Shown here: positions 30,769 through 54,741 of the stretch, piece after piece
Layout: each line of letters starts with the position of its first letter
Position numbering within the stretch: the stretch's first letter is position 1
NCBI GenBank assembly: GCA_950295325.1
Contig: OX485805.1
Coordinates: 21,501,501 to 21,565,500 of the forward strand
Direction: 5' to 3'
DNA length: 64,000 nucleotides
From: Polytrichum commune
Taxonomy: Eukaryota > Streptophyta > Polytrichopsida > Polytrichales > Polytrichaceae
Program-made: the position numbers and the translations under genes
Notes under the pieces: generated by a model
What the model saw: the letters and a program-made list of their open reading frames with translations, nothing else
Told to the model about the DNA's origin: nothing
The model's database searches: none

Positions 30769-30774
30769 ATTTCA

Positions 30775-31005
30775 GCCAGACAAGAAGTCGGAGGAGACCA
30801 CGGTGGCAGCGCTCTTGGAAGGCAGGCCGTTGAGCAGGACGGTGCTCTTCAAGTCGGCGACGCAGTAGTCGTTGATAGGATCAACGTCTGTGGCAACTCC
30901 TACTGACACGAACATGGCCACGACCAAGATAGCTAAGAGGAGCCCTCTCTGCTCCGACCTCCGACCTCCGACCCCTCTCCGACCTCTTTCCGGTTCGCTC
31001 GCCAT
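30775..31005 (-). pseudogene. Germin-like protein, first exon (fragment between rDNA pieces)
   Basis: The minus frame contains a signal-peptide-like LLLAILVVAMFVSVGVA, then TDVDPINDYCVADLKSTVLL and NGLPSK, SAATVVSSDFLSG. This is the start of plant germin-like proteins (secreted cupins): hydrophobic leader, (D)xDPxxDxCVADL with the first Cys of germin box A, then VNGxPCK and the DFxxSG end of exon 1. Here the second-box Cys is Ser. The Met at 31005 and the following Arg-rich residues come from the adjoining CT-rich sequence and are not native. The cupin barrel is missing. It sits between two 26S/ITS2 fragments of the same orientation, inside the pogo-like element. Confidence 0.75.
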
Positions 31006-31257
31006 TACTAGGGAAATCCTGGTTAGTTTCTTCTCCTCCGCTTAGTGATATGCTTAAACTCAACGGGTGGTCTTTCCTGATCTGAGGTCTGATGCGTTCG
31101 ACTGTTTCCCTGCCCGAAGGGGCCGGGAGACCTGCTAAGTCCCGACAATTCAAGGCTGCTCGGGAGACGACGACGGCTGCGCACGCTTCTTAACTCCTGG
31201 CCAAGGGAGGGTCGGATCACTGATCGCAGCCTACGCCTCCGCAGCGGCGGGACTCTC
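30985..31257 (-). rRNA. 26S rRNA 5' end plus ITS2 fragment, copy 2 (non-functional)
   Basis: In complement: CCTCAGATCAGGAAAGACC, then GTTGAGTTTAAGCATATCAC, TAAGCGGAGGAG, AACTAACCAGGATTTCCC and TAATGGCGAGCGAACCGG. This is the conserved start of large-subunit rRNA (the ITS4 primer region), preceded by about 180 bp of ITS2. The CCTCAGATCAG form is typical of non-seed plants. A few changed conserved bases fit a pseudogene. Confidence 0.88.
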
Positions 31258-31640
31258 TGTTCTCTCTGCTCTCTCTCCGAGCCCACTCTGCTCCGACCTC
31301 CGACCTCCGACCTCCTACCTCCGAGCCCTCTCTCCGACTCCCGCTCCGAGCCCTCTCTGACCCATTCACAAACCCAGTTACCCAGCTAGGATTCAACGGA
31401 TTGAGCCCACGAGACCCTTGTGGGCTTTGCAGCAAGCATGGGTGTCAGCTGAATTTGTGGAGAACGGACGTGTTAAAGTCAATGTAGAACATATTTGGTA
31501 CCATTTTGCTGGATTTCCTCACATGCCACTTGAATTCATGTAATTTTGGGCAGAACCATAATATTATTTTTATTTTTTTGGGCAAACAGAGTCAAGAATT
31601 TCCAAAAAATTTAGGCGCTCTTGTAAATAATTATTTTCTG
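31258..31640. other. CT-rich low-complexity stretch and pogo right arm
   Basis: Runs of CTCTCTCCGA, CTCCGACCTCCGACC and similar (31258-31350) are followed by unremarkable AT-rich sequence up to the TIR. No gene. Confidence 0.6.
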
Positions 31641-31665
31641 CCCAAGCTGCTAGTAACCTACGGTA

Positions 31666-34663
31666 CGCAGTTTCCAAGCACAAAGTATTGTATCCGTGTT
31701 TATCCAAACCGGTCCATATGCTGAGTCCACTGTCCACTTGAAATTCTTTTTGGTGTCCCACCCTAAATAGGTCCGGAGAACGTTCTGGTCTTTGGTGCTA
31801 GGACGGCAATATTCCACTTCAATTTGACGAAAGTTGGGGCTAGTTCGGACAAAATTGGGTGAAGACAATGCTTTCACCAACCAAATTGGTTTGGGGTGCT
31901 CCTCATCTCCTGCTCGTACGAGGACCATATACCCTTCATGGCAATCAACACCCACACGAAACGACGGTGCTGGCCGATTGCGCGTTGGACCAACGTAATG
32001 CTCGTTCATTACGAACTCTTCACGGACCTCTCCATTATCGAAGAACATCGTGTCGGACTCGACAACCGTCAAACGACTTTGTGGCCAAAATCCTTGTGTC
32101 AAAGTTATAAGTGTATCGCCACCAAGTGTCATCAAGGCCGAGCGAATGTGATCCCAATACACGATCAACGGTTCATAAGTATTCCTAACACATTTGGTAA
32201 TGTCTTCCTCACACAACTCTTTCCAATATTCAATGAATCCGGATATGCCTTTGATGATTTCCACCCCATTCTTCATGGGGTCGGGTTTGCAAGGCTTCGG
32301 ATCCCCATCTGGAAGCAAACATTTCCCATCCTCGTTCTGACGCCACACGAGTATACCATCCTCTGGAGACCAATTAGGAGATGTGCACAAAAGCTTAAAC
32401 TGTATAGCCGGGATACCATCATCCCTCATATAGAAGCGGAATTGTTGTGCTTTCGTATGTCCCACCAAACGGTCCTCTCCCTTTAGCATGTATGGCTTGA
32501 TGAAGGCCTTGAAATTTGGTATTTCCTCAATCATGTGCAGGATCACGGGCACATTGTCCAAATCCATGTATGATTTCATGAGAAGCGGTATGGTGGGAAA
32601 ATCCTCTTCATGCAACTTCATGCTCCAACGTCCAAATGATGCATCAATGTCGTCGTGTGTGTGTCCCACCATCAAGAAAGACACAAACACCTCTTTGAAT
32701 ATGCCTTTTGCCACAAGCAATGACCAAAAACAAAACACATATCGACATTTGTTGTCTTTAGCACAATTATCAACTTGAACATGGAGAGTTGGAGGCAATG
32801 GTTTTGCACAAATGGGTTCTCTAGGTGGTTCCGGCAATGCCGACATATAAATCTCCTTCCCCTGAAGCACTGCCTCATAAAGGGGTGTCGTTCCACAACC
32901 ATCAAAAAAGGCACGGGAAGAGTGAATCAACGGTTTCTCAAGATCGCGCAAGAGTTTTGCAAATGAACCAACCGTGTGGTTGGCATCGCTAAGGTAAAAA
33001 TCCAAACCATAATGGGCATATTTAACGTCCCTATGGCTGTGGGCGATCATACCTGCGAAAAAAAATGATGGATGAACAACAAAAATATGGGATAACCACT
33101 CAACGGACGGATGAAGTTTGACATATGCCAAACAAACCCAAACACATTGGAGATCCTTCCAAACACATTTTTGATTCCATACGAACCTGTGACAGCTACG
33201 GGCAACTTGAAGAGACCATCCGTGGCTTTTATTTTGCGTGCATAACAAGGGCACGCGGTTTTGGCATGGTCCATTTTATCATGGATGACAATAAGGACCT
33301 CCGCAGGCCTCATTATCGATAGTGCACGATTCTTGTAGTAATCTTAACGGTGGGCCTCCTGCTTGTTGACATGCTCAAAGTATTTTCTTTGGTGTCTAGT
33401 ATAGGACTCTGTGCCTATAGGATGGGCGTCTCGAAGACCTTTGTATTTTTCACAAGCCGTACACCTGGCAAATTTGTCCCCGGGTCTTTTCAAAATGTAC
33501 TCCGCAAACTGTTGGTTTTTAATTACACTCAACTTGGACAAAGAAATGTGTCCACATCTAGCTTTGCGACCCACTTCGTTTATTTCCGTTAAGATGTTTT
33601 TCCATTTTGTGCCCGTGGGCAACACCATTTGAACAACTTTCTCCCCGGACGACAATGTCCTCGTCTTGTGAGGCATTGCATCAGCCAACGGCACTATGAT
33701 GGTGGAGAGTGTCGCGGACGCTTGGAGTGTAGCCTCCCTAGGTTTCTTGGTGCCCGAGTTGCCATGAAATCGAGAACGGCGACCCAACAAAGAATACTTC
33801 CTAAACCTATAAAAATCAGCCTTGGAGATTGCATGGATGGAATACCATGCAGTGCAACACACTTCCACATTCTCAAGGGTAACCACCTTATTGCCATGAG
33901 TGTCAACGTGCAAATTCCTGTGGACCTCGAGTTTTTTTGCTAACCTCATACGAAAATCTGCAAGCCACATCTCTTGACGCAGGGACCTAATTTTTTCCCG
34001 CGGAAAAAATTGGCAACATTTCTTCGCGCAACAGTCCTTTGTGGACACTTGACGGATAAAGTCCTCTCCAAGTATGCAATCCCGTCTACGTTCTTTTTGT
34101 CTGCCAGATACGCGACTAGAATCGTATTTGCGCAGACTTTTCCAAGGATGTCTTGCGGCCAACAAAGCTGACTGCGTTTGCTTGTGCCGTCGCCCATGAT
34201 CCCACAAGCTTACTTCTTCATGGAGAATTCGACGCAGGGGCCATCGCCGCAAGGAACATCTCCAAGTCAACGGGACTTCCAATGGAAGCAAAGAATTCAA
34301 GATGCAAACACCAACATCATCCAATCCAAGGGGGTTGGCATCAATACATTCAAGGGGATCGGAGTTTCTACAAATGCCATTTGCCACAAGGACACCATCC
34401 TCGTTCAGAAGAACAACATCAAGGTCCACCCACTGCTCCCTCCCGAAACCAGCACACAATGGAATGTCGTCGTTACCATCCCCAGAATGTTGAGAATGTT
34501 CCTGCCCTTCCAAAGAGTCATGGGAGGATGTATCCCCAGACACACCCAGGACGTTAGCCCCCCGAATATCATCCTCCGATGGCGACGAGAGGCGACATTC
34601 CGTATCCGACGATGAAGCATTCGTCGACAACTCAAATGCACTATCTCCCATATCCATCGCCAA
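31666..34663 (-). pseudogene. DUF7869-like putative transposase of element B (main part)
   Basis: Exon 1 starts at an ATG at 34663 (MAMDMGDSAFELSTNASSSD, acidic) and includes DCCAKKCCQFFPREKIRSLR, EVCCTAWYSIHAISKADFYR, SSGEKVVQMVLP and RPGDKFARCTACEKYKG, then continues past a single TAA at about 33342 to DKMDHAKTACPCYARKIKAT. An intron (about 33185-33055) follows. Exon 2 holds MIAHSHRDVKYAHYGLDFYL, LPPTLHVQVDNCAKDNKCRY, VFVSFLMVGHTHDDIDASFG and EYCRPSTKDQNVLRTYLGWD. The pogo element cuts off the last 45 or so codons. Cys/His-rich N-terminus plus the VDN/GHTHDDID core fit a DUF7869 transposon protein. I infer that it mobilises the element. Better kept than copy A. Confidence 0.8.
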
Positions 34664-34860
34664 CCCACCTCAAGACGCCAACATGGAATCACCACAAATC
34701 GAAGTCAACCACAAAGACGACAAGAGTTTAGTCTACCAAAGTCACAATCCAGAACAAGTTACAGTGGGGATATCCAAACGTTCGTCTGCATATCGACACG
34801 ATTCCGTTTGAGGTGGGCATATATACGAACGGGCGTTCGAATGTTCCCCGTCATACTGTA
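34664..34860. promoter_or_regulatory. Upstream region of the DUF7869-like gene with GAAC-type palindromes
   Basis: A half-palindrome (AAACGTTCGT) at about 34777 and ATACGAAC GGG CGTTCGAA at about 34822-34840 lie 115-180 bp upstream of the ATG. By position this is the promoter. No TATA box stands out. Confidence 0.4.
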
Positions 34861-37629
34861 TGTCAACTAAAACATGGACCGTATCCATTGTGGAGGAATG
34901 CTTGTTGTGAACCCTTTGAGTGGTCCACCACTCTGCGGGATCACTTTTAGTTAGAATGTTAGCATTAAAAGTTAGAATTGATAGGGAATTTAGGGAAAAT
35001 TAGTTCATTTAGCATTTAGCCTAGAAGAAGGAAGGTCAAAATGAAACTAAGTAGTGCTAGAAGATAGCAAAGTAGAAAAAATGTGCTAGCTAGTAAAAAC
35101 AACTAGCTAAGCAAATATTAGTAGATGCTAGTTATTAAGCAAATGTTAGTAGATGCTAGCTAAGCAAGTGTTAGTTTATTAGTTAGTGTGAGGCACACAA
35201 GACTATTAGAGGTGGTTTAGGTAAGAAGATAAAATCGGCTTGAAGAATTTTGAAGAAAAAAAGAAAGAGAGCAAGGGGGATACTTGCCCACTTGCCCCCT
35301 TGCCAACTCGATGGCGGAAAAATTAGAAAGATTTCTAAAGGTTTTTTGTCGGAGCCACCTCGGCGAGAGGGTGGCAACCTCAACCGGGAAAATCCCCGAG
35401 CCAAAATTTCGGGAAAGGGTTTGAAAAATGGATCCGGTGGAGGAGGGGTCCAACCCTTTTGTGAGAGGGTTTAAAAACCCCTCCTTCCACCTTGTAGCTC
35501 TCTCTCTTTCTCTAGTTTTTGGGCGAAGCCCTGCTTCAATGTAGTTAGGAAAAAATCCTTTAGCATGTATTCTCAATGGTCTAAAAGAAAGGCTTGAGAA
35601 CCTCCTCTACTCTCTCTCTCCTAGTTAGGTTGTGTGTTTATTAACACACCAACAAAATTATTCCTTCTTTTGTAGAGGTAGGTTGGATGGTAGAGTTTTG
35701 AGTAGACGCATTATAGACCTCATCTGCCAATGCCCTGAAGGCTTAGTTCAAAAGCTAGAACAAGATACTTATCATTTTTCTCTTAGAGAGATTTCATATA
35801 GCTATCCATAGCCGTTTCCCATTTGTGATTTGGTTGAGATGACAATTAGTTATGGATTTTCAAAGATGGAGTAGAAAAACTGGGTGGTCTTGTGGGTAGC
35901 GGCTGCTGGATCAGACCTGCGAGCTCAATAGGAATTTTAATTCCAAGAAATTATATTTTTCCCAAGTAGAACTTTTGTGTAGCTTTCCAAAATGGCTTAG
36001 AACATTTGATTTGAGCATGATTTGAATTAGATATGAATTGTGCAAGATGGGACACATAGTTTGAGAACTTTTGGTTGACTGCTGCATTACAGAGGACCTG
36101 CTGGGTTCACTTCGGCTTACCTTTCTAATCACATATTTTTATCAAATACATCTTTTTAATATCTCTCCAGGGTCATATAGAACGTTTGATTTGACTAAGA
36201 TTTGAATTAGATATGAATTGTTGAAGGCGAGATACATAGTTTAAGCCTTCTTGATTGACTGCTGTGTTACAAGGAGTCCGCTGAATTTCTATTACCTTAA
36301 CCTGCTGATGTCATAATTTTTCTAGTTAGAGCTTGTTCATAGCTTTCCGATGGTATAAGGAAAGCCTAGATCCAAGTAGTAAGGAATGTGCTATGAATTT
36401 TTGAAGTTAGAAGGTAGATAGGTGGGTTGGAAGGGTCGGTTGAATCGACCTCACACTTCCAACCCTCATAACTTTTGCATTTCTTATCCGATTATAGTGA
36501 TTTTTAGATCATTGGAAAGATAATTTGGTGCACTAAGTATAAATATTATGCTTAGGATTAAATTACAGGGCAGAATAACACTTTATATTTTAATTGTTAA
36601 CTAAGGTACGCTTACTACCAAACTAGTTACAAAGAAGGAGGCAAGGTCGACGCTCGGAAAGTGGAGCAAGGAAGGAAGTAGCGGCTCGGCCTACATCAAG
36701 CCCAAATCAACCGAGGAAAATTGAGGTAAATTAACTAACCTTAAGCCTTCCATTTAGGATTGGAGGGAGCACGGCTAAGGTACGCATCTCTAAACCCACT
36801 CACCTATCTCGTAAGGTCAAGTGGCTTGACCACTTGACCGCCAAGGGAGTACCCAATTCCATTGTTTTCGGGGCCCTTGGTATGTTTTGTGGTAGTAGCT
36901 TCATTTATTAGCAAGTTTCGTGTGTGGTAAGTCGGATTAATCACCGACACGACCACTCTGAATGTTGTTGGTGGAAAGGTGGGGTTAATGACCCGCGAAT
37001 CCACTATTATGTTGTTGGCCCCATAGATTGGGAGTAATGGCCCCAATTTATGAAGATTGCGCAACAGGTTGAGCCTACAGGTCGCCCGTCACCCTGGTCC
37101 CATTTAGTTGCATTTCGTGGTCTATCCAGTGTAAACACATTTAACAATCAAAACATACAAAATGAATCGTAAACCCTTGTTGGCAAGAGACCCGAGGTAA
37201 GGGGTGATGCCTAATATGTTAATGTAGTAAGTTAGGACGTGCAAACAAAAGTAAGTAATTAAGAAGGAATTTGTGTGAAGGGTGGGACTTAGGCCAAGTT
37301 CCCCCGCTTAGAAAACTAAATAGAACTAAATAAAGAAATAGGAAGAATTGAATGGTCCATCAAATTGTCGTTATTCCGTTCGTTGAGTTAGGGTGGTATG
37401 AGTCACACCCGGTTGGGTGTATCAGAACCATCCCAATTCACAAATTAGGATTGCCTTGGTTTCAAGGCTGGTGCGTCTGCGCGTAGAATAGGTTGTAGGT
37501 TAAGGTTAGAACTAGATATGAAATTGGTTAGTGGAGTTTAAAGCCACACTAGTAAAAAACTAAGGCCTAACCTCCGGAGGTACTACAATGCATATTTAAT
37601 CTCCCTTAAAAATCTAACTACTCACGTTA
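34861..37629. other. Noncoding, probably an inserted LTR-like repeat
   Basis: No coding frame of note in 2.7 kb. It contains GCTAGCTAAGCAA-type short repeats (35080-35170), a leader-like stretch ending in CTCTCTCTCTCCTAGTTAGG (35600), and repeated blocks around 35990-36060 and 36170-36250 (TTTGATTTGA, AGATATGAATTGT, TTGACTGCTG). It separates palindromes that should be continuous in element B, so it is likely an insertion, perhaps a long solo LTR, but I could not fix its ends or a target duplication. Confidence 0.4.
36000..36260. repeat. Diverged duplication
   Basis: Two related blocks, each with GAACRTTTGATTTGA, AGATTTGAATTAGATATG-like sequence, GATACATAGTTT and TTGACTGCTGYRTTACA, begin near 36000 and 36178. 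The unit is about 180 bp. Confidence 0.6.
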
Positions 37630-37904
37630 TACACCTATCATCCGGGTTCGGCTTGGGCGCCTGCAAATGCAGGCCACCTTCACCGAAGGGCTTGTGTGAT
37701 ACTTTTAGGCTCCCTCGAAAGGGGGTGGCCCAAAAGTACCACACTTGTTGTATGCGTACACAAAACTTCCGAGTCAGTGACGCATATGAATGTCTTCTTC
37801 CATGTGCCCCCCATCCACATCCCTCGCCCATACTATCTATATGTGGGGCAAATGGAGCAGTTTCCCACATCCCGAAGTCATGATCTAGAGACATTCCTTG
37901 CATT
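37630..37904. other. Element B central region, no recognised gene
   Basis: Frames exist on both strands but none matches element A or a known family. A possible short exon cannot be excluded. Confidence 0.3.
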
Positions 37905-38690
37905 TATTCGACCGCACGTTCGTATCTATGTCTCACATTTTGTTGTGAATACATATATAAGTGTGTGCATGCCAAGGGAGGTGTCCTGAATGCATCGCTG
38001 AGACTTCCATGGGGAAGTCACGAACGCCCGTTCGTAAACTCTCGCACGTCATATGTGTATCTGGTGAACTCGATGATACTTAGGAACTTCCGTTTGCAAA
38101 CTCCTATCGTATTTTATATACATATTCCTACCCCTTATAATCCTGAGTCTCCGGATGTTCAAAACAAGCGGTGACACTTACGAACGGACGTTCGTAAACT
38201 CCCCAATGTCATTTGAGGATGAACCATCCTCCGTCTCCGAGCTTTCAATGTTTACGAACGCGCGTTTGTGGAATCTTGCCCATTACCAGTGAATGTCGGA
38301 CGTCCAAATGCACATTTACGAACGCTCGTTCGTTAACATTGGCATATTGTCTGACTGCATAATCATCTATGGGTCTATACATTTATGGATGTATAATATA
38401 CGTCAAGGCGGTATTTACGAACGCACGTTCGTAAACATCCAACCAACCTCGATATATCTGTTCCCTAAACACATGCGCGCACTCCAGATTTACGAACGCG
38501 CGTTCGTAAATCTCTAGTATTTTATATACATATTCCTACCCATTATATTCCTGAGTCTCCGCATGTTGAAAACAAGCGTTGTCACTTACGAACGCACGTT
38601 CATAAACTCCCCACTGTTATTTGAGGATGAACTATCCTCTGTCTCCGCGCTTTCAATGTTTACGAACGCGCGTTCGTAAGTCTCCGGTAT
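37905..38690. repeat. Array of GAAC-type palindromes, part 1
   Basis: Palindromes on the half-site TTTACGAACGC with the mirror GCGTTCGTAAA lie near 38018, 38179, 38251, 38316, 38414, 38486 (28 bp, perfect, to 38513), 38586 and 38659. Spacing is 65-160 bp. The centre varies (CGCG, CGCACG, CGGACG, CGCTCG) while the GAAC/GTTC arms are kept. The ORFs running through this array (with YERxFVN-like peptides) are just translations of the repeats. Confidence 0.88.
38108..38688. repeat. Direct duplication of about 170 bp, offset about 411 bp
   Basis: 38108-38277 and 38519-38688 are close copies, from TTATATACATATTCCTACCC through CAAAACAAGCGGTGACACTTA, two palindromes, and the TTTGAGGATGAACCATCCTC block. 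So part of the palindrome array grew by duplication. Confidence 0.85.
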
Positions 38691-38716
38691 TTGAGGAATA
38701 AGGTTGTCTGACACCT

Positions 38717-38908
38717 ATGAGTGTACGGTTCACGCACAGGAAAATGGCTCAAGCGCCCTCCGTCGGGTGTCTAGAGCGCACACTTGGTATCTGCTGCAAA
38801 AAAGAGCTCTGCAATGGGGGGGAGAGCTTTAAGTACTCCTCGACGCGTGGTTCAAAATCCCTTGGATGCTCTTTGAAAATCGGATTCCCGCCGCCTACTT
38901 TAACCTAA
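38717..38908 (+). CDS. Short open frame, possibly a first exon
   Basis: Encodes a 63-aa Cys-containing peptide (from about MAQAPSVGCLERTLGICCKK). It begins where the palindrome array stops and points toward the DGQH gene, so it could be a 5' exon. I see no equivalent in element A and do not recognise it. Confidence 0.2.
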   Translation: MSVRFTHRKMAQAPSVGCLERTLGICCKKELCNGGESFKYSSTRGSKSLGCSLKIGFPPPTLT

Positions 38909-39503
38909 CAATATGCCATTCTATTCATGCGGGACATAAATAACTTTCTGTATTGAATATGTATGGCATGCACACATTGATAATATGTTCATCCGTTGCC
39001 CACCTTAGGTGTTACCAAGGTTTCCCGAACCAAAAAAAAAAGTATATTCCTATATACATATCGAAATATATATACATGTTTCTTATATATATATATACTT
39101 TACATATATACACATTACATGTAGATACATAACATTTATGTACATAACATTTATGTACATTATTCCGGCAAATACTCACCAAGTGCATCAACACCAATAA
39201 AAAACCCTGGTGAATTCATGCAAGCTAGTAAGGTAGATTAAGGAGATGAATTGAAACCATGCCTAGATATACTTTATATCTTAATAATTCAAATGCAACT
39301 CCAGGTTTGCAAATAGTGAATTGATTCAGCATTGTGTGGCAATGTTGAATTAATTTGGAATGGTGCATAAGATACTGTATTGATATGAATTGAAACCATA
39401 CCTAGATGGGGTCCCACTTCTGCATTGTGTGATTAAAATGCACACAACACTATTAGGTTGGATCACAACATTCCCCCATATATTGGGGATGGTGAAAAAA
39501 CCA

Positions 39504-39540
39504 AGGGTTTAGGGTTTAGGGTATGGCTTAGGGTTTAGGA
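39504..39540 (+). repeat. Short interstitial telomere-like tract
   Basis: AGGGTTTAGGGTTTAGGG, then a break and TTAGGGTTTAGG. Plant telomere unit TTTAGGG. Confidence 0.75.
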
Positions 39541-39695
39541 TTTGTGAGGGATGTGCGGGTCCAGTAGTTAATATAACAGGGTTTACACACAAACTATATT
39601 CACTACTCATAAATCCATATTGCACTTACTTAATTTATTTGCAGCTGACATTTGATGCGAGCCAAACATTCAATGGCCATTGGGTGAAATGCAGT

Positions 39696-39989
39696 ACACT
39701 AAATATGATATATAGTGTTAGATACACTAAATATGAACACTACACTAAATATCACTAACCCTATGAAAGTAAGTAACATTAAATGTAAACTCAAACACTA
39801 AATATCATCTAAACATTAAATGTAATAATTATGTGAAAGTTACATGCACGAATTTAGTGTTTAGTAGGAAAGAGGTGGCAACAAGGAAGGCGGCGACGGC
39901 GCATTTATGTCTAACACTAATTATCAAAGAATTGAAACTTAGTGTTGAGCATAGTAGGGTGGTAAAACACTAAATATCATATTTAGTGT
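39696..39989. repeat. Cluster of CACTAAATAT inverted repeats
   Basis: ACACTAAATAT-G-ATATATAGTGT at 39696-39718 (one mismatch) and ACACTAAATAT-C-ATATTTAGTGT at 39967-39989 (perfect arms) flank further single copies on both strands (about 39733, 39743, 39794, 39859, 39911, 39940). The motif begins with CACTA. It may be a subterminal repeat set or a nested foldback. Confidence 0.7.
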
Positions 39990-40445
39990 AGTTCAAGTTC
40001 ATACATAATAAACTGAATTGAAAGCCTATTTGAAATTGGATTTTTCGTGCACCTCTTGTAAGAAAATCCTAAACCCTTCCCACCAATCTTAAAACGGGAC
40101 CTTTATGGATCTTATATTAAATTATTTGAGGAACCATTTAACAACTTGAAAGGTATTTCAATTATGAAAACACTATATATTTGAAAACACTATATTATTA
40201 CACATTCTTGGAGGTAGGGTTTCCATCGAATCCCTACTACATGATGTGCATTGTAGAAATTGAATTCATACTCCCTGTCTAGAAGATGTTTACAATGAAT
40301 CTAAAGTAGATAAAGGGGATGTAGCATTTTAAATACATGTATTTGTATTGAACTCTTTAAAATTATGTGATGGAGGCATATACATATTACAAAGCTTGAA
40401 ATTAACGTGCCTTTATTGCTTATACATCCAAATTGGATTATTTTC

Positions 40446-40478
40446 GTTATTAATGAGAGACTCGGGAAAGTCTCAAAG
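40446..40478. repeat. Worn copy of the element A/B terminal hairpin
   Basis: TTCGTTATTAATGAGAGACT-CGGGAA-AGTCTC resembles the first 40 bases of element B after its CACTA start. The CACTA itself is not kept. It suggests the remains of another family member inside B. Confidence 0.45.
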
Positions 40479-40659
40479 TAAGTGCAAATGGTGTAATATA
40501 TATTTACATTTCTTATTGTGATGACATATATTTATGTCAAATCGGTTAGTGCTTCCATTGCAAATCACTTTATTAAGTCACATTGCATATATTTATGTGC
40601 TTAGACGTGTATTTATGTATATATATGAAAATGTCTTCGATTAAATTACTAAACCCCAA

Positions 40660-40790
40660 TGAATTCCAACCCATCCCCTCCATCCACCCATCCCACACCC
40701 CATCCTATCCCCATCCTATCCCCATCCTATCCCCTCATCTCTCCACCCCATCCTATCTCTTCATCCGACGGACCTAACTATCTCTCCATT
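40660..40790. repeat. Minisatellite, CCTATCCCCAT-type units
   Basis: About seven imperfect copies of CATCCTATCCC and CATCCACCCATCCC. Noncoding. Confidence 0.7.
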
Positions 40791-41085
40791 CAATCCCCTC
40801 ATCTTGCTAGCATGACCCATCACTTCCCTCCCCAATGGGAAGCGGCCATGTGGCAGCCTGAGGGGAAACCCTAGAGGCGCGGGCTACCTCCCCACGCCCC
40901 CTCCTCTCCTTCCTCATTCTCATTTGGAGCAGAGAGAGGAGGAGCGCTGCGTTGGTTTAGGGTTTAGAGGCGAAGCTCTAGCATTTTTTAGTTTTGTGTG
41001 GTGCACTTCTTTTGTAGGCGCAAGTGTTGAGAGTTCTTGGCAGTCCCTTGAGAGTTGCAGCTTAAGAATAGAGAACTCGAGTTAG

Positions 41086-41190
41086 AAGAGTTGAAAGTTG
41101 GCGAGTTGAAAGTTGGAGAGTTGAAAGTTGGAAAGTTGAAAGTTGGAAAGTTGAAAGTTGGAGAGTTGAAAGTTGGAGAGTTGAAAGTTT
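41086..41190. repeat. Tandem repeat, 15-bp unit
   Basis: About seven copies of GAGAGTTGAAAGTTG, with small changes. The minus-strand frame through it is a repeat translation. Confidence 0.8.
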
Positions 41191-41736
41191 GCAGAGTTTA
41201 AAGCTTGAGAGTTGGAAGCTTAATATTAGGATACTCAAGCTAGAAGCTTGATAATTGCAAGTTTTAGAGTAGCAGCTTGAGAGATACAACATTTGGATTT
41301 GCATATACATCAGAGTCTTAGTTAGGGTTTGTATATAGCATGCAACAACTAGTCTGAAGGCAATTTCAGTGGTGCAGTGGTGCATTTGACTTTCAAATCA
41401 CCTTGCTTTTGTGGGGTTTGCTGGGGTTTTCAACAAGAGAGCAAGCAGGTTTTGGGTGTGTAAAATTTCAGAGTAAGCACAATATTCCTTCCCTTTTCAG
41501 ATCCTTCACAGTCTATATTTGTTCATTATTAAATGGCATATGTTTTGGAAGTCAAGTTCGGATCCTCATTCTGAATTCTGTCACATTCCAAGTCTATATG
41601 TTTTGATTGTATTGTTTTCTTCAATCTCACCTTTCTGACGAACACTTGTAGGCACGAGTGCAAGCTTTGTTGAGACACAGCAAGCAACCCCTTGCCATAC
41701 GTATGTATACGAATTCGTATATATATGTATCCATAT

Positions 41737-42495
41737 GGGGCCATTCACGGTTGGGGTACTACTTTTGGGACAAAGGACTTAAGGACTTTGTCACTTTGAT
41801 CTTGGTTTTTATCATGATTTACTATTATTTGATCAATAAATTTACATAAATAAGTAGATAGTTCATAAGCTTTATCAAGAAAGATTTTTATTATTATTTA
41901 ATAATCACCCTAAACCCTAAACCCTAAACCCTAGGCCACATCAGTGGCATTTTTTTGCTATTTAGGTGTGCATTGGTGGTCAATTATTTCCTGTTATGTA
42001 TCTTGGTACCTTGGTAAAAGTGTCATGTGTCCATTCATATAAATTTTTTTGTCCAATTCTAATACTAGACGTTCCTTTTACGTGTGGCCGTGAGTATATG
42101 TATATTTGGACATGTTTGGTGCCACATGTAAAGTTGGGCAATTGCTATTCAATACATATTTGGTTCTATTGGTACACACTTGAACGATAATTGTGAGGAA
42201 AAAAATTGGGATCATTTCGATTAATTCTTGTTGTCCTTTTCGTTCCTTGATCCTAAGGTCAAGAAGTAAGACAACACTCCTGAATGTCCTGTAAGGAATC
42301 AAATGGATATCATAGATGACCCTATTACTTCTAAATTAACTTTGTCGTTGTACTCAATATGGAGGATGAAATGTAGGTATGATCCAAAATATGCTCCACA
42401 ATACAAATCCAATTATACCAAGTATGTGAAGTTATCAAAAAAAGTCCTTAAACCGTTAGACACCCAAAAGTAGTACCCCAACCGTGAATGGCCCC
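41737..42495. mobile_element. MITE-like TIR element, copy 2 (TSD ATAT)
   Basis: Same TIRs and interior as 1065-1873: GGGGCCATTCACGGTTGGGG at the start and its complement at the end, with ATAT on both sides (41733-41736, 42496-42499). It is shorter than copy 1 because about 80 bp are replaced by a telomeric tract at 41908-41933. Confidence 0.85.
41908..41933 (-). repeat. Telomeric tract inside MITE copy 2
   Basis: Three CCCTAAA units and a partial fourth. In MITE copy 1 the two flanking sequences (..TAATAATCAC and GGGCCACA..) are joined instead by about 80 bp of ordinary sequence. Confidence 0.85.
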
Positions 42496-42548
42496 ATATA
42501 TGTACGGATATAATAATAATATAAATATATATAAACAAACAACAGGCT

Positions 42549-43052
42549 CATTTACGAACGCGCGTTCGTAAATGCCTGTACCGCGCATAATATACACCCT
42601 TTTTACGAACATGCGTTCGTAAATGCATGTGCCGTGCATAATATGCACCTTTTTTACGAACGCACGTTCGTAAATGCATGTGCCGCGCATAATATATACC
42701 TTTTACGAACGCGCGTTCGTAAAGATTCTTTGGAACCCAAGGACTATGTTTACGAACGTGCGTTCGAAACCCTACCTCCAAAATGGAGGGTTATATCCAT
42801 GCTGTAATTCATATAAGTACCTAAACCCAATCACGACACTAAATTTAACTCAGTAGGTTCCAATATATCGCATGACTTTACGAACTCACGTTCGTATATT
42901 TATGTACAAAATACTAATAACAAGGCATCTCGTGCGTTCGTAAAAGATGTGAACCGATGCGCATAAAGCATTCAAAATTTCGTATGTCCAAAACCAAACT
43001 ACGAAAATAGTCTGCATGGCACGGTGTTGTTTACGAACGAACGTTCGTAAAA
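42549..43052. repeat. Array of GAAC-type palindromes, part 2
   Basis: Sites at 42549-42574 (26 bp, perfect), about 42602, 42653, 42701, 42747, 42877 and 43029. The first four form a tandem array with a unit of about 50 bp that also contains ATGTGCCGCGCATAATATA. The last site lies 31 bp before the ATG/acceptor of the DGQH gene. Confidence 0.9.
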
Positions 43053-44385
43053 GCAATTCTGATTTGTTTTTGTGTGATGCAGATGGCTAAAGCTAGCAGA
43101 AACGCCATCGACTTGTTCGCAGTGCCAGCGGAGCGCCTTCCAGAAGGTGTCTCGGATACCAATGGGAACGACAACTATGTCCCAAAAGAAGAAGTCATGG
43201 CTGAGTGGACGGCAATCCCCATGAATACCAAGGAAGGGTTGTTTGCGTTGCGATTTACTTATGAGCTGCAGACAAGGGCTGACCAACCAGACCAATGGGT
43301 GCAGACAAAGAATTGGGAGATAGAGTCCGTAGAGGCATAAGGAGATTTTGTTATTTTGGATATGAAAAATAAAAAAGACCATATCAACCTCCTTTTAAAC
43401 TACCTATTGCAACCATTCTCCTACGTGTATGCATGTAATAATGTCGCATCCGATGCGAAACATTTCAACATGGATGCTCTCTTCACCAAATATGCCCTAA
43501 GTCAACACTGGACGGCGAGAAAGTTGACAGCCCTGACCTTGAATATTTCGAAGTTCAACAGTGTTGCCACGGAGGCAAATTAAAAAAAGAAAAGTCCAAG
43601 AAAACCATCTGCTTCGGGGGCCGGAGGATCGAGAAGTGCTCTGCAGCCTGTGCCTTCGGGGAGCAGGGTGACCGAAGGGCCCAGCAGACACTCAACTCCA
43701 TCCAAGAGATCAAGGGAGGATATGGAGAAGTCTGGAGTGACAGAAGGCGCTAAGGTGAGTTCTCCGCCACTGATGCCGACCCCTTTGAAGAAGGGAGAAA
43801 ATCGAGACGCAACGAAAGCGACAAAAATCCTTCGAGACTTCAACAACTACTCCAAGGATTGTTGGCCTATGGGACGCCGCTTCACTTTCAATGTGGACTG
43901 TTTCAAGTGCGAGAAATCCCCGAACAAGTGGGTGGTGAGGTCTCGTGAAAGCGGAGGCGTAAAGTGGCAGATTAATAACCTTATGAACAATGTCAAGTGG
44001 GATAGGCAGACCGTCTGCGTGATGCCCAAGGGCTTTTTGTCGCGCCCCACTGAGAAAGATTGGCCAAGAATCGAGAATGGAGAGTTTTGGATAATCGATG
44101 GACAACACAGCCTGGAGGCATCACAAATGATCCTCAAAGATGATAACTTCCAGCACGAGCTCAAAGCGGACTTGCGCTACTGGAAGGTTTTTTTGGTGTG
44201 GTCTGACGACTGGGACAAGCTGCGCAAGATATCCACATTTTTGAATTTTGGGAACAAGATCAAGGCATTCGAGGCCTCTTGGGCGGCGAATATAGTGGCG
44301 GCAAGAGACGTCTGGGTAGCGCACGGATGCTCGCCAAAAGAGAGGGAGAACGCGAAGATCCAATCCCCACAGTGGAAAGTGAGTT

Positions 44386-44464
44386 CACGAACGAGCGTTC
44401 GTAAAGTATAAGTTGTATTCAAATATTTCTAAAATTGTCAACTTACGAACGTGCGTTCGTGTTT
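44386..44464. repeat. Two palindromes inside the first intron of the DGQH gene
   Basis: TTCACGAACGA followed by GCGTTCGTAAA (starting 7 bp after the GT donor) and CTTACGAACGT followed by GCGTTCGTG. The 123-bp intron is little more than these two sites. Confidence 0.85.
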
Positions 44465-45850
44465 GATATGAAACACTGACATTCTTCATTGTATGTTGCA
44501 GGCGTTCTGTGATGCGATGGTGGACAAGTTTACATCCATCGACATGAAGTCCACGAGCACAAAATCAGTTATGGAGCTCAAAGGTGAGCTTCGGCTGATT
44601 TGCTGCAACAGAGAAACCTGGGATTTGTGGACCCAGTTCTTCGACGCTCACAGCTCGGGCGACGTAGTGAACCCTGACACTGAGGAGAAGTACAACAACG
44701 ATAAGAACGGCGAAGCCCCTCCTCTACTTAGAGAATTTTTCAGGCCCCTGCAAGGACTGACTGAGTCAGAGTTGCAACGGTGTGCGGTGCACCTTCTTGG
44801 GAACACCGTGGGAAGGACGATCCCTTATCCCAAAATATTTTTGAGGAGACCGAAGCACAAGCCCGGCACATACTCAATAAAGGAGTGGTGCGATCACAGG
44901 AAGCTGAAGACCGCTGCCATGCGGAAGATCAATGGACTATTGCCTGAGATGCACCTCTTCCAAGCCGATGGCGATGTCAACTGGGCAAAATGGAAGGAGT
45001 TCAAAGCTCAGTACAACATCAACGGTGCCTTGATGCGGAGTCTGGTGAAGGAACACGTCGCCGTGCTGAAGCTCAAGGGGAACAAAAGAGCAAAAAAAAT
45101 AGAAACTGAACCTGAAGAGATTCAGCGGTACGTCTCCTTCTTGGAGAGGAAGAGGAACGCCACATTCGAGGGTGTCGCAAGATTTTGTGTGGTCACAACG
45201 GGTCTCGAGAGGACCACTTTTTCCAAGTGGGATGGCACCATCAGCAGGGCCGAGATCAGGGAGGACCGAAGGGGTTGTCCCTTCGCGGTCATCGACTTCA
45301 GGGGGATCCCGGGTGCTTACAAACAGGGGGCGAAGGGGGAGCCTTTTTATAACCCCTTCATGGCGAAATTCATGGAGCACAAATCGCCAACAATGAGGGA
45401 GCCGCACGTATGGCTGTGGATTGTGGAGACGGAGAGACTATCCGTCGTCACCGATTTGTACGAGAACCAAATCAAGTTTGAGTACAACATCTTCCACAGC
45501 ACATACGTGCCCGTGAAGACGGAGGGGATTGTTGCCATAAACGAGGCGAAAGGCAACAAGCAGGTGGGAGCGGTGAGCCTCATCTTCTTGACGTACAATG
45601 CGCTGAGGAATGGGTGAGCACCCATCAAGGCGATCAACACGTTCAAGAAGATCTACAATATCCCTCACCCCCCTCCAAAGGACATCTTCCAGGAGACGCT
45701 CTTCACTGTCTACCCAGCGCTCGAGTTGAGGATGGAGTTTTACGTGTCCATATTGCAGGGTTTGGCGATGAATGGCGAGACTGTCTACAACGTCTTCGGG
45801 GGCAGCAAATTTATGTACGCGCCGGCCATGGTAAGCCATCACAGAGCACT

Positions 45851-45988
45851 TTTTATGAACGCACGTTCGTAATCACTGCATGCTCCAAACAATTATTCTT
45901 AGGCAACCGATAGGTTTTAATCTTTGTGAATTAATTTGTTATTATTGCTTCGCTCAAAGCCTTGATGTTCACGAACGTGTGTTTGTAT
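45851..45988. repeat. Two palindromes inside the second intron of the DGQH gene
   Basis: TTATGAACGC followed by ACGTTCGTAA at about 45851, and TTCACGAACGT followed by GTGTTTGTAT at about 45968. Same GAAC/GTTC arms, slightly worn. Confidence 0.75.
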
Positions 45989-46963
45989 ATGACTGACTCT
46001 TTGCCTTCTTATCTCAGATGCTGGGGTTGTGTGTCAATACATATGTTGACGCCGTTGACGAGGAGGATTACAAGTTCTACAGGACAAAAGCGTCGACGAT
46101 GGACTTGGGTGACATGTCCGTGCCTAGGACGGACTTCAACATGCCGACCGACGAAGGCATGCCACCCATGGAAACAGACGACGATGAGCCTGGCCCATCC
46201 GTCAACGTCGATGCCATCATCCAGTCTTTGGACGTCACTCCTCTCCGGATGTTGGCCCCATCCTGGGAACCGTCTAAACCCCAAGGGACTCCAGGTGGTT
46301 GTACTGGGTCCTCAGCAGGGGCCTCCCACGATGTGCTTCCCGCGCGATTCTCTGGCGTAGAGGCCTTCGGCACGCCAGGCGGTTGTTCGACATCGGTGTC
46401 CCCCAGGCCCAGGCAGGTGGTCCCCAAAATGGAGACCCTCGATGTCCTCGACCAACGCTCCCGTCCCACGTTGGACTTGTTCCGCAACATGCGACGGAGG
46501 ATGAAGAAGACCCCGTACGTGGAGTTGCTCGCGGGAGCGATCATCGAGGTCTCAGACGAAGACGAGGGGGACTTGGACATCATGGTCGAGCTAGGGGTGG
46601 AGTTCGACAAGAACAAGAGGGTCAAGGAGGAGGCCCTCTCCGTCGCCGAGCTTAACGCAAAGCATGGCAGCGCCTACAGAGGAGAATGCCCGGAAAATGC
46701 GAAAAATTGAGGAGGAGCTGAAGTCCTCAAACGAGAAGACGGACGCCATACTGGCGATGCTGACGAGGTTGCAGAACTTTGCTGTTGCCCCTCAGCCGGC
46801 GTACCCGTTCCCTGCGGGATACCTCACGCACGCTTCTTTCCCCGCAGGGCCGTCATACCAGCCAACACCCCACCCAACGCCGGTGGTGACTCCACCCTCT
46901 GCAATGCCCACGGACACCGCCAACATCCACGATGTAGTCTCGGCGGCCATCCGCGAGGATGAG

Positions 46964-47456
46964 GGTTTACGAACGCGCGTTCGTGAACCTTCAGGTCAAA
47001 CAGTCCTCACCCCTCCCCCACCAACGGTAGGACTGCCTTCACAGACGGACACGGCACCTTCCACCGTCGTCCCCAGGATAGTAGATCGGACAAGGGGCGA
47101 TGACACACTGCGCGACACACTAACATGCTCATTGTGGAGGACACGCAGGGGAGCCCGAGTGACACGGTAGGGGTCCAGAGGATGGACGTCGATGACAGCC
47201 CCGCGACAGACCGACATCCCCCCGCATACATGGGGGATGTGCGAATGGAGACGCTCGACCTGGGTGTCGAAGACGACGACATACAACAGACCCATGAGTC
47301 TCAGGCGGCGCGTTCAGACGACCCTATGGAGATGGAGGCACATGCGGCGGTGGATGTGACGAACGCGCGTTCGTTAATCATTGAGGAGCTCCCTCCGATG
47401 ACGAGGTAACTCATCTCTGAGATTGCCACCTGCTTTGACGAACGCGCGTTCGTAAC
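46964..47456. repeat. Palindromes within and just after the last coding exon
   Basis: GGTTTACGAACGC followed by GCGTTCGTGAACC (46964-46989) lies in the coding frame and reads GLRTRVREP. TGACGAACGC followed by GCGTTCGTTAA (47357-47377) lies in the frame read TNARSLI. TTTGACGAACGC followed by GCGTTCGTAAC (47434-47456) lies just past the stop. Confidence 0.85.
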
Positions 47457-47740
47457 CTCCTAACCACCTTCGTTGTGTTTTTGGCGCGTTGTCTGCATCG
47501 ACATCCGAGACCTGCGAGAGCCCATTTTGTGTACGACCTTATGTCGATCAGTTTTGTAGGACACGGCATCCTGTTGCCTTAGGAACCTGTGTGATAGTGT
47601 ACCATGAGAGAAACTGTAAATTTTGACGGATTTCATATAATGAAATGAGCTTTGCATCGAATCGCACACACTTTGTATTGAATCGTATTCCTTGTATTGT
47701 GTATGTATATGCGGGTTCACTTTCTTGTGCAATTCAACCT

Positions 47741-47952
47741 CGTTTACGAACAGACGCTCGTAAAAGGATCCGACCCCTCGTCCATCTCTTTCACGAACGA
47801 CCGTTCGTAAGTGTACCATAAGAATCCTTCACAAACAAACGTTCGTGAATGGTGTGCCTAGTCACTGCTGGCCTTCTTTCACGAACGAGCGTTCGTGAAT
47901 TATGCACCTTGCCACTTTCTGGCCTTCATTCACAAACGAGCGTTCGCAAATG
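47741..47952. repeat. Downstream cluster of GAAC-type palindromes
   Basis: Five sites at about 47741, 47790, 47828, 47878 and 47928, 38-50 bp apart, mostly with TTCACGAACG arms and a varying centre. They lie 330-540 bp beyond the stop of the DGQH gene. Confidence 0.85.
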
Positions 47953-48358
47953 TGCCCTTCAGCACATTCTCCTTACAATCTTGTTCTCGCCCTTAGTATT
48001 TTTCCATAATGCATCGTCTTCATATTTGATGCAAAATTCTTTATTGGATCATAGCATTAAACTAGTCGAATTGTTAATCAATTTTTGATCAATACTCTAG
48101 CGCCTTACCTTAGAAGGCTTGTGCTCCACGCCGGTAGCATCCCCTTTTTTGTTAGGTCCAACCCCATCGGCAATGCGGGACTAAGCCCCCGCGATAATGT
48201 ATATAAGAGCATCATGAGGCTCGCAAAATTCAATAAATTGATTTGAAATATCTCCATTTCATGCTTGTTATCATGTGGTTCACGTATCTAATGCTTCATC
48301 CATTTTTGGATGTCTTTGTTCTTGTTGATATTGTTGTTGCCCATAGTGTGCCCCCGTA
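47953..48358. other. Noncoding gap before the gypsy insertion
   Basis: No gene. A TATATAAGAG box at about 48200 after a GC-rich segment (CGGGACTAAGCCCCCGCG) looks promoter- or LTR-like, possibly a piece of another retroelement. Confidence 0.35.
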
Positions 48359-48515
48359 TGTGACGCCCCCGTCCTCGATGGCCTTTCCCGTCCCCACGCT
48401 CCCCTTCCCGCGACGTGCCGGAGTCCGAGGTTGTCGCGCACCTCTCCATGAGGAGTGCCCGAAACACCATGGGCACAAGGGGGACCCCGGAGTGACACCC
48501 GGGACTTGTGGCGCC

Positions 48516-48937
48516 TGTTATAGAATTAGTATCAGAACTAATTAAGGCAATCTGATGAGGCTTAAGGTGCAACCAGATGAGGCTTAGGGTTAATACCCGG
48601 ATCCAGGGTATTAGTAAAGGATATAGACCCTAGACACTTAGAGAGAACACTAAGTAATTAGCCTGTAGTTAAGGGAACCCAATCAGGGTATCCCGAGGGT
48701 ATAAAGGACTTAATCTAGTGTAAGGAGTTACCCACCCCGGATATCCCGAGGGTATCAACCAGGCTATCAACCTGGTTGGTATGGCCAGTCCTATGGTGCA
48801 ATGAGATAGTGCCACGTGCCCATACTGTATTGATTTTTGATATACTCTATAAATACCCTCAGATACCATATACGGGTATGACTGAGATATGCACCTACAT
48901 ACTGTCCAAATACACTATCTCTTTTCAGTCTTCAACA
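48516..48937 (+). repeat. Copia 5' LTR
   Basis: 422 bp with TG..CA ends. TATA-like CTATAAATACC at about 48847 likely marks the promoter. Confidence 0.93.
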
Positions 48938-49606
48938 CGTTATCAGCACTTGCTCCTGGCCTACTTTCTACACATTTTTCATCCATACTAGCTACTCTAC
49001 TCTGTTCATACGTTTAGCATACTTCTACTTCATCCGGTGAGGAACCCGAGTGAACACATGAGTGAATGCTTTAGAATTACACATACTTTTGCTTACCATT
49101 TAGTTTTGCACACACACATCTGTTAGTGGAACACCTTTTTCATACTTTGATATCATACTTCATCCATATCAGAACTCGTTCAATCCTTTGTTCATATTTC
49201 TACTTCATCCGGAGGGAGGTTATGCTGTCAAAATTTTAGCAAAACTACTCCACTAGGACTGTTATGCTGCCAAATTTTTTCAAAACCGGTTCTATCTTAC
49301 CCCACCTTTCTTTCTGGTCTGTTATTTTGAACCTCAGATATATACATATTTTATTTTTGTTTTGACTGCTTGCATATTACTAACTTATTTCTGATTCAGT
49401 AACCATATACTGAATTACTGTTGAACTTTTGTCATAAACTTTATAAATTACTACCTAACCTGTTTTGTGTACAAAAACTGACTAACCTCTGTTGATATAT
49501 ATATATATATATCTATACATATTATATATATATAAATACTAACCATATATATATATACATACTATATTTTTTTTTCCTCTTGTTTCATTTCCAGAAATAC
49601 TTACCC

Positions 49607-49644
<38 letters not shown>

Positions 49645-50247
49645 TTTTGCTTAACTAACACTACGTGTATTTTCTTATATATATATACGAGTGATATATA
49701 TATTTTGTGTAAACTGACATACTGAAATATTTTCTATTTATTTCAGAACTAACATTTCTATTTTATATATATTAATATACATATACTTTGTATATTCCTG
49801 TTTTGATTTCCACTAACTTGTTTCTGGTACTCAAAATAGTACCGAAATGCTGCCAAAATTATGTAAGACTTATCTAAACCCCTCCTTTACCTATTGATTT
49901 ACATTCTGTTTCTGTAAATCTGTACAAATTTTTTTATTTTCTGTTCATACACCTTTTATCTATATAAATACCTACTGTTTAATTTGAATACTTTCTGTCT
50001 ATTTATATCCTGCCTGTCAGTATACCCTTTTGTTTGATCATATTTTTCACATCCATTTATACCCACTTAATCCTTGTATATTCAATCTGTTTGACTCTGC
50101 ATTCTCTGTTTAACTGATTCCTATCTAATTACACTTATAACCCCCCCCCCTGTCTCAATAATCCCTGTTTTAAACACAACTGCCCTTTTTCTGCCATTTT
50201 CTGTTTTAGTAAATTCTGCCATTTTCCAGAATATATAAAATTACACA
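48938..50247. other. Copia leader: primer site and AT-rich untranslated region
   Basis: 1.3 kb without coding frames. Several TATATA runs (49494-49520, 49540-49556, 49602-49645, 49675-49705) and a C tract near 50140. Confidence 0.85.
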
Positions 50248-54651: not shown

Positions 54652-54741
54652 TGCTCTTTTCTCTAGTTAAGGTTTTCCCAAAATCTGGGTTTTTACTTAG
54701 CAGAGTTTTTAATGAGGCTAACTCATCAGCTTGAGGAGGAG

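Follow-up and report, generated by a model that had tools for sequence, protein, structure and literature searches.

Clade-specific palindromes accompany a predicted ParB-methyltransferase-fold protein in DNA transposons of Polytrichum commune

The window, that is, the whole 64,000-nucleotide stretch of contig OX485805.1 analysed here, carries two related transposons, element A at its left and element B. Element B is no longer intact; complete members of its DNA transposon type span 16–18 kb, have inverted ends and are flanked by a 4-bp target duplication. The original prediction had delimited a palindrome-bearing feature at 34822–47952; the palindromes do lie there, but comparison with another copy showed the element to be wider, from 27430 to just past base 64000. 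Alignment to a complete clade-1 copy (L055+L056) revealed several later insertions inside element B. The same alignment and a match to the terminal inverted repeat place its left repeat, TAACACTATATTCGTTA, at 27430–27446 (plus strand), while the right end falls just outside the window and the right part of the element resumes past nested insertions at 63026–64000 (plus strand). On the minus strand lies the DUF7869 gene (31650–33254; Pfam PF25273, E=1e-38), which has 94% DNA identity to that of the complete clade-1 copy and probably encodes the transposase of the elements. It is adjoined by ORF2 (33344–34663, minus strand), an open frame with relatives in all three complete elements compared. 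The plus strand carries the ParB-MTase gene, which consists of exon 1 (43083–44378; N-terminal domain, linker and a ParB-like domain with DGQHS), exon 2 (44502–45830; methyltransferase fold with DFRGIPG and NVFGGSK) and exon 3 (46018–47170; a fast-evolving tail). This copy of the gene is broken, with two in-frame stops in exon 1, one in exon 2 and a disrupted exon 3, the last being a single open frame in the complete clade-1 copy; many other copies of the gene have open frames. The NIF-phosphatase gene is mostly missing from element B, and a remnant at 48081–48427 (plus strand) corresponds to the end of its region in the alignment to the complete copy.

Half-site TTTACGAACGC matched the window 75 times with at most two mismatches, against 10.4 expected (sd 3.1; maximum of 100 shuffles 19). 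About 28 palindromes had been predicted in element B, and we found the 22-bp palindrome at 29 places with at most six mismatches (30 with at most seven) between 34822 and 47950, in every type of position that had been proposed: upstream of both divergent genes, in both introns, in coding sequence and downstream. Upstream of the minus-strand gene they occur at 34822 and 37905–38680, comprising a diverged copy directly upstream (34822–34843) and an array upstream of the DUF7869 gene (38017–38680) built partly of tandem repeats, with a 166-nt unit present twice. Another array, with a spacing of approximately 50 bp in part, precedes the ParB-MTase gene on the plus strand (42551–43051). Intron 1 holds two palindromes (44384–44463; starts 44384 and 44442), the first beginning at the sixth intron base, and intron 2 holds two more (45852–45989; starts 45852 and 45968). 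Exon 3 contains one at 46966–46987, and the last group spans the gene end and downstream DNA (47356–47950), with the palindrome at 47356 in or at the end of the coding sequence and the downstream ones at 47435–47950.

Element A belongs to clade 2. Its minus strand carries a fragment of a NIF-type (FCP1/SCP-like) phosphatase gene (3463–4041; PF03031, E=1.1e-06) and a degraded ParB-MTase gene (5155–7640), recognized by frames and DNA match, in which the methyltransferase exon and exon 3 are present and no ParB exon was seen; 7214–7481 matches 44902–44638 of element B at the DNA level. Ten palindrome places were counted between 5201 and 9746 with at most seven mismatches, most of them with ACGGAC spelling, as is also the case for the stretch of palindromes at 7710–9767. 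The ORF2 region (10060–11105, plus strand) is cut by an insertion reaching from about 11105 to 24630, past which the DUF7869 gene region resumes (24630–26532, plus strand). The right terminal inverted repeat (27174–27190, minus strand) matches the clade-2 repeat exactly.

The 408-Mb host genome contains many copies with open frames, falling into three protein clades. The elements have been mobile recently, and 4-bp target duplications (TATA, TACA, CATT, AAGT) were found on both sides of all four complete copies. Target-site duplications of 4 bp are a feature of the Sola superfamily of DNA transposons; the duplication here is of that type, and the transposase region matched DUF7869 only. The ParB-MTase and DUF7869 genes occur together in all three complete elements compared. 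Complete elements carry 22 to 46 palindromes (at most five arm mismatches), and the arrays grow through tandem duplication, with spacings of 95, 135, 51 and 78 bp. In the complete clade-1 copy the palindromes lie 3.7 kb from the left end and 2.4 kb from the right, most sites being internal; a few degenerate sites less than 0.5 kb from the right end were seen in the clade-3 copy only. The ParB and methyltransferase exons have diverged faster (45/35/34% and 54/37/37% identity) than the DUF7869 protein (82/66/65%).

The genome-wide search for elements with both gene and palindrome, suggested together with the original prediction, returned many copies in three clades, each with its own 22-bp palindrome, TTTACGAACG, TTTACGGACG or GTTTGGGTCG, in which two half-sites of 10 bp flank a 2-bp centre of free sequence. 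In clade 1, ACGAAC stands on both sides in 57 of 58 core-matching sites (12 loci). In clade 2, ACGGAC does so in 184 of 210 sites (30 loci), the others being 20 with ACGAAC and 6 mixed; 20 of the 30 loci have a single ACGAAC site each, upstream of exon 1. Clade 3 has 84 sites of GTTTGGGTCG type in six loci (at most three arm mismatches). With the same threshold the six clade-3 loci lack palindromes of the clade-1/2 types and the 42 clade-1/2 loci (180 kb) lack the clade-3 palindrome, so that the two never co-occur in the 48 loci compared. Perfect matches to TTTACGNACGNNCGTNCGTAAA and TTTGGGTCNNNNGACCCAAA number 4,102 and 10,123 genome-wide, and both read backwards gave none. Within a clade one half-site occurs in differing sequence contexts, and in clade 3 the same placement recurs with a different palindrome; the distance from the 5' splice site of intron 1 to the palindrome start is about 6 to 22 bases in all three clades. 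Among relatives in public sequence sets, intron-encoded tails show the spelling that goes with the clade in 27 of 27 informative clade-1 proteins and 10 of 10 informative clade-2 proteins, the tail signatures having been picked after inspection of the tails. The first 60 and the last 110 residues were scanned in two of the three reading frames; 63 of the 100 proteins gave no information, among them P0010 with one mixed site and P0007 and P0024 with near-miss tails. Since elements within a clade share ancestry, the clade counts represent few independent switches, at least two. As a pattern in sequence, this co-variation strongly supports the view that the protein recognises its own element via the palindromes.

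Conservation of the sites was compared in four sequences per intron. In intron 1 the half-site arms were 91.7% identical in clade 1 against 62.8% outside (centre 75%), and 95.0% against 65.2% in clade 2 (centre 50%). The contrast was weak in clade-1 intron 2 (91.2% against 86.1%), a comparison made without L040, whose intron ends were not matched by the pattern used. The CpG-decay test spoke neither for nor against an escape of the palindromes from methylation, with CpG transitions at 8/1146 inside and 43/4168 outside; the outside rate was hardly above that of other C/G (226/25575), and most differences came from two of the 17 copies (3.5% and 9.3% diverged).

A ParB-type domain followed by a methyltransferase-like part had been proposed from the motifs, and structure models of middling confidence agree, giving ParB/Noc and beta-class DNA methyltransferase folds, the latter over model residues 643–861. 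The ParB-like domain has the predicted ParB/Srx fold, with low Foldseek TM-scores for this part (about 0.3 by query). The ParB/Noc CTPase-clamp family has a CTP-binding motif of GERRxRA type. The corresponding position reads DGQHSxEA here; G, Q and H do not vary among 24 aligned sequences, and clade 3 has DGQHSVEA. The catalytic motif of beta-class DNA methyltransferases is (D/N/S)PP(Y/F/W). Where it would be expected the family has a conserved DFRxxPG, an apparent replacement, the position being judged by eye and not by residue-level superposition; D265, F266 and P270 are invariant in all 36 aligned sequences, and the motif is also present in clade 3. Motif I is degenerate (NVFGGSK in element B), with NVFGG kept in one complete element per clade. 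We infer that the methyltransferase domain has lost catalysis.

Scans of Pfam, PHROGs and NCBIfam gave no ParB family. With the protein, Pfam and PHROGs gave nothing above the cut-off (sub-threshold RE_XamI in exon 3, E 0.041, and one weak PHROGs match, E 0.11, respectively) and NCBIfam gave nothing. Alignment members gave at best DUF6551 in Pfam, below the cut-off (E 0.024, 5 of 24 members), and two weak single-member matches in NCBIfam. The DGQHR family profile TIGR03187, whose motif reads DGQHS here, matched weakly in one of 24 members (E 0.5). PDB sequence searches returned nothing meaningful. Profiles A2 and A1 against 5.8 billion proteins (about 7,990 candidates sharing most words for each) returned family members only and no bacterial or viral relatives; two peptide patterns found no relatives in IMG/VR and GTDB contigs, and the exact palindrome was not found in IMG/VR. 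Among the papers listed in searches of open-licence PMC text, none described palindromes of this kind or a ParB/MTase gene in a eukaryotic transposon, which is no proof of absence in print, and DUF7869 is not mentioned in the literature searched.

The original idea of a self-contained recognition system gains support, as palindrome spelling follows protein clade. We propose, with a probability of about 0.5, that the elements carry their own site-recognition system, in which the ParB-MTase-fold protein binds the palindromes, marks the element as self and keeps its transcription on. Physical binding, dimer formation and anti-silencing are the parts that we infer. The protein, most likely as a dimer, would bind the two half-sites of each palindrome; the sites concentrate in front of the two divergent transcription units, within the introns of the protein's own gene and where that gene ends. 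Occupancy of many sites would label the element as self, in cis as well as in trans, and would keep it transcribed either by countering host silencing, as VANC does, or by activating the promoters directly. The methyltransferase domain would probably be non-catalytic, serving as a structural or DNA-contacting module. As in the unrelated VANC/VANDAL system, recognition would most likely serve to keep the element expressed against host silencing. A bolder version, which we find rather unlikely, is a transposon-borne eukaryotic analogue of ParB-parS that loads at dozens of palindromes, spreads along the element and excludes silencing chromatin, with the methyltransferase fold as DNA-reading module and a site specificity rewritten at least twice, thousands of sites changing in step.

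The protein might instead bind the palindromes for transposition itself, as an accessory factor in end assembly or excision control and not in chromatin. TnpA of En/Spm, which binds subterminal repeats, is a precedent, and the company of the two genes in the three complete elements compared would fit. This is nevertheless improbable in our view, because the majority of sites lie kilobases inside the element and cluster upstream of genes and in introns, near-end sites being the few degenerate ones of the clade-3 copy. An autorepressor or copy-number regulator that shuts off both divergent genes is a more doubtful proposal. DndB, a DGQHR protein that binds 5'-TACGN10CGTA-3', controls its own operon through this palindrome (PMC4507180); the clade-1/2 palindrome includes exactly that spacing, both genes have sites upstream, and others sit close to the 5' splice site of intron 1. 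On the other side, the number of sites per complete element far exceeds the need for an operator, and the DGQHR profile match is weak. A simple DndB-type operator was set aside because clade 3 lacks TACGN10CGTA.

It is quite improbable that the protein works as an N6A or N4C methyltransferase which its ParB-like part directs to the palindromes, whose marking would then protect the element in the manner of restriction-modification self-marking; the predicted fold and the retained NVFGG, which would fit kept cofactor binding, speak for it, and the conserved DFRxxPG at the expected place of the DPPY-type motif speaks against it. A role of the palindromes as RNA hairpins within introns and UTRs, for instance in splicing control, would suit their distance from the intron 1 splice site in all three clades, but there are arrays in the intergenic DNA that separates the divergent genes and downstream as well, and the free 2-bp centre is as in dimer-bound DNA, so this is highly improbable. 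Least credible, and already disfavoured, is coincidence by descent, with neutral repeats spreading with lineages unlinked to the protein: tandem duplication does multiply sites, yet the same half-site stands in different contexts within a clade, flanks and centre drift around conserved arms, and clade 3 repeats the placement with another palindrome.

How a transposon recognises itself and escapes silencing without harm to the host is an open question, for which VANC is the well-studied sequence-specific example. If self-recognition by the ParB-MTase-fold protein holds, it would be an independent solution from parts unrelated to VANC, in which a eukaryotic transposon uses a ParB-type fold fused to a methyltransferase fold that has apparently lost the enzyme motif. 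The data are unusually clear and code-like: there are three palindromes for the three protein clades, one genome contains many open-frame copies, and the sites number in the thousands. Co-evolution of a protein with dispersed sites becomes directly testable.

Among known systems, fungal TET/JBP transposons encode a different enzyme, and we know of no matched palindromes in them. What they have in common with the moss elements is a gene for nucleic-acid epigenetics carried by a DNA transposon (PMC12730594). Beta-class N6A/N4C DNA methyltransferases (M.BceJIV, RsrI, CcrM, Adineta N4CMT) share the predicted fold, but here DFRxxPG apparently replaces the DPPY-type motif and motif I is degenerate. 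With DndB the protein shares the DGQH signature, and by inspection the clade-1/2 palindrome fits the site spacing reported for DndB; the clade-3 palindrome does not fit, and the last residue of the motif is S instead of R. ParB-parS, Noc and VirB likewise combine a ParB-type fold, predicted in our case, with multiple palindromic sites, but differ from a eukaryotic transposon with a methyltransferase-fold fusion and DGQHS in place of the GERR-type CTP motif. VirB, a member of the ParB superfamily, counteracts silencing (PMC10653881). VANC differs in its 9-base motif against the 22-bp palindrome, and is set apart by description, not by sequence, from the predicted ParB-like and methyltransferase folds; the VANDAL elements, which are Mutator-like, differ from the DUF7869 transposon type with its 4-bp target duplication, and anti-silencing, demonstrated for VANC, is a proposal here. 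In Arabidopsis, short VANC motifs crowd the element's non-coding DNA, in introns and ahead of the transposase gene, their arrays expand as tandem repeats, and motif and protein co-diversify between VANDAL families (PMC5735166, PMC10398659). A transposon-encoded protein, site placement, tandem-array growth and joint diversification of motif and protein are thus what the moss elements share with this system.

The half-site TTTACGAACGC matched 75 times in the window at two or fewer mismatches, against 10.4 expected and a maximum of 19 in 100 shuffles. The full palindrome, TTTACGAACGN followed by NCGTTCGTAAA, has 29 occurrences between 34822 and 47950 when as many as six mismatches are tolerated and 30 when seven are, and the many dispersed palindromes of the original prediction for element B were thereby confirmed. 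Mismatch-tolerant mapping bore out their predicted placement as well: sites lie 5' of both genes, the minus-strand and the plus-strand one, and others occupy the two introns, exon 3 and the downstream region. Part of them are contained in tandem repeats. Element A, the related transposon to the left, yields 10 sites at a tolerance of seven mismatches, most of them in the ACGGAC spelling.

The host genome searched, a eukaryotic one to which the window belongs, comprised 408 Mb in 64 contigs, the seven contigs named among the matches being 42-78 Mb each. The twelve loci of clade 1 of the ParB-MTase protein (L037-L048) had ACGAAC on both sides in 57 of 58 sites, with one mixed. In the 30 clade-2 loci (L001-L030) the ACGNACGNNCGTNCGT core was present at 210 sites: 184 had ACGGAC on both sides, 20 had ACGAAC and six were mixed. 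The ACGAAC sites occurred once per locus in 20 of the 30 loci, 5' of exon 1 at a distance of about 100 bp from the exon-1 match, nearly all other sites being ACGGAC; the lone site may be a relic or a specialised site. Two further recurring palindromes, GCCTAATATTACAATATTTGGC and TCTTCTAGGAGTTTCTAGAAGA, were observed in the clade-2 loci. Clade 3 (six loci, L049-L054, found via the family protein P0058) carried GTTTGGGTCGNNCGACCCAAAC at the corresponding places, including the start of intron 1, immediately past its 5' splice site, and no clade-1/2 core site was found in these loci. When as many as three of the 20 arm bases may mismatch, these loci hold 84 sites of their own type and lack the clade-1/2 type, and the 42 loci of clades 1 and 2 in turn lack the clade-3 type; the locus counts include kin copies, some near-identical, and are not independent events. 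Judged from these sequences, at least two switches are needed across the three clades.

Relatives were sampled as 100 family proteins from public sequence sets (source labels mostly ena, jgi and lgn). These proteins often extend into flanking introns, and the translation exposes the palindrome. With tail signatures picked after inspection of the tails (FTNxRS or YERxFV for ACGAAC, FTDxRP or YGRxSV for ACGGAC), ACGAAC was scored in all 27 informative proteins among 62 of clade 1, and ACGGAC in all 10 informative among 36 of clade 2. Both clade-3 proteins were uninformative. By eye, P0010 of clade 1 has a mixed site and the tails of P0007 and P0024 are near misses; all three are counted among the uninformative proteins.

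Perfect TTTACGNACGNNCGTNCGTAAA (A and G spellings pooled) occurred 4,102 times and perfect TTTGGGTCNNNNGACCCAAA 10,123 times in the 408 Mb, while neither pattern occurred there when read backwards. Among the matches listed, covering the first 2.5 and 2.1 Mb of contig C1, 84 of 86 and 100 of 100 distinct sites, respectively, had a neighbour within 5 kb, and the clusters, 13 in number, totalled 30 and 33 kb. The family gene was confirmed in both of the 13 that were checked (C1:2458891-2467589 and C1:616089-626109). Small clade-3 palindrome clusters were seen at C1:438280-438425, 462876-462991 and 475339-478027 of the host genome G000. Small clusters with no known gene may be non-autonomous copies; if so, those of clade 3 would undergo recognition in trans.

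Arms of the palindromes were conserved around a free centre. Identity among four sequences in clade 1 was 91.7% for arms, 75.0% for the 2-bp centre and 62.8% for the rest of intron 1, and 91.2, 70.8 and 86.1% in intron 2; in intron 1 of clade 2 it was 95.0, 50.0 and 65.2% (four sequences). This would be the footprint expected from a dimer reading two half-sites. Decay was followed in 17 clade-2 copies, 15 of them less than 0.7% diverged and two at 3.5 and 9.3%. A/T positions had changed in 0 of 1214 cases within sites versus 298 of 39752 outside. CpG transitions in the same copies did not differ clearly (8 of 1146 inside, 43 of 4168 outside), thus giving no sign that the palindromes are protected from methylation.

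Aligned to a complete clade-1 copy (L055+L056) over bases 27430 to 64000, element B starts at 27430 and ends just past the window, interrupted by later insertions at 27967-31664, 34906-37743, 41736-42494 and most of 48428-63026. For element A the end lies at 27190, and an insertion spanning about 11105-24630 divides it in two. One insertion of element B holds a 490-aa open frame (28312-29784), by eye presumably pogo/Tigger-like. Also nested in element B is a retrotransposon (48516-55185), which we take to be Copia-like from the appearance of its frame; this frame is open over 1467 aa, and the two LTRs are 93.7% identical. At 41720-42512 there is a MITE-like insertion whose inverted ends measure 50 bp, and another copy of it, 82.9% identical, sits towards the left end of the window (1065-1873). 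Complete copies have terminal inverted repeats beginning AACACTATATTCG, and a target-site duplication of 4 bp flanks all four (TATA and TACA in two clade-2 copies, CATT in clade 1, AAGT in clade 3). Over more than 16 kb the clade-2 pair shares about 99.2% identity, which indicates recent movement of the family.

In the three complete elements compared, one strand carries the gene for the DUF7869 protein, a probable transposase, with an adjoining ORF2, and the opposite strand the three-exon ParB-MTase gene and a NIF-type phosphatase gene. Pfam assigned PF25273 (DUF7869) and PF03031 (phosphatase) for the window and for clade 2; in the other clades the two genes were assigned by BLAST. The ParB-MTase copy of the window is broken, exons 1 and 2 containing in-frame stops and exon 3 being disrupted; open exon frames were present in many copies elsewhere in the genome (the best 53 of 1860, 87 of 1184 and 96 of 1067 candidates being scored). 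The phosphatase gene lies at 3463-4041 on the minus strand of the window, at L032:4658-5437, and at about 7594-8364 of L056 and 6037-6879 of L058. NIF (FCP1/SCP-like) phosphatases usually have a DxDxT-type motif. This position reads DLNGV in the complete element of each clade, so that the protein, like the MTase part, may be deprived of its usual chemistry. In local alignments of one complete element per clade, identities for pairs 1-2, 1-3 and 2-3 were 82, 66 and 65% for the DUF7869 protein, 78, 52 and 66% for ORF2, 62, 46 and 41% for the phosphatase, 45, 35 and 34% for the ParB exon and 54, 37 and 37% for the MTase exon, with exon 3 below both. The site-linked ParB-MTase protein was the most divergent, which would suit a recognition factor engaged in an arms race. 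Divergence faster than that of the DUF7869 protein was also seen for the phosphatase.

The best-supported core of our reading is that the ParB-MTase protein probably recognises the palindromes of its own element. The central guess of the original prediction, that the protein acts on these sites, is upheld as a reading of sequence, with palindrome type switching together with protein clade. On the features tested, the protein did not fall within the ParB family or the catalytic methyltransferase families. The main alternative within the binding idea is that it acts as a repressor through the same sites. Under the anti-silencing explanation, which we infer to be the best one, recognition would prevent or reverse silencing of the element, and binding specificity for the own clade and loss of silencing marks would follow. 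Anti-silencing is suggested by the resemblance of the palindromes to VANC targets and by VirB, a bacterial anti-silencer belonging to the ParB superfamily (PMC10653881). The DGQHR-family protein DndB has the site TACGN10CGTA (PMC4507180); this is present inside the clade-1/2 palindrome but absent from that of clade 3, and the resemblance is therefore only a lead. As described in PMC5735166 and PMC10398659, the targets of VANC, the anti-silencing protein of Arabidopsis VANDAL transposons, share with the palindromes a location 5' of the transposase gene and in introns, the occurrence in tandem arrays, and co-diversification. The system appears to work like VANC, built of different parts.
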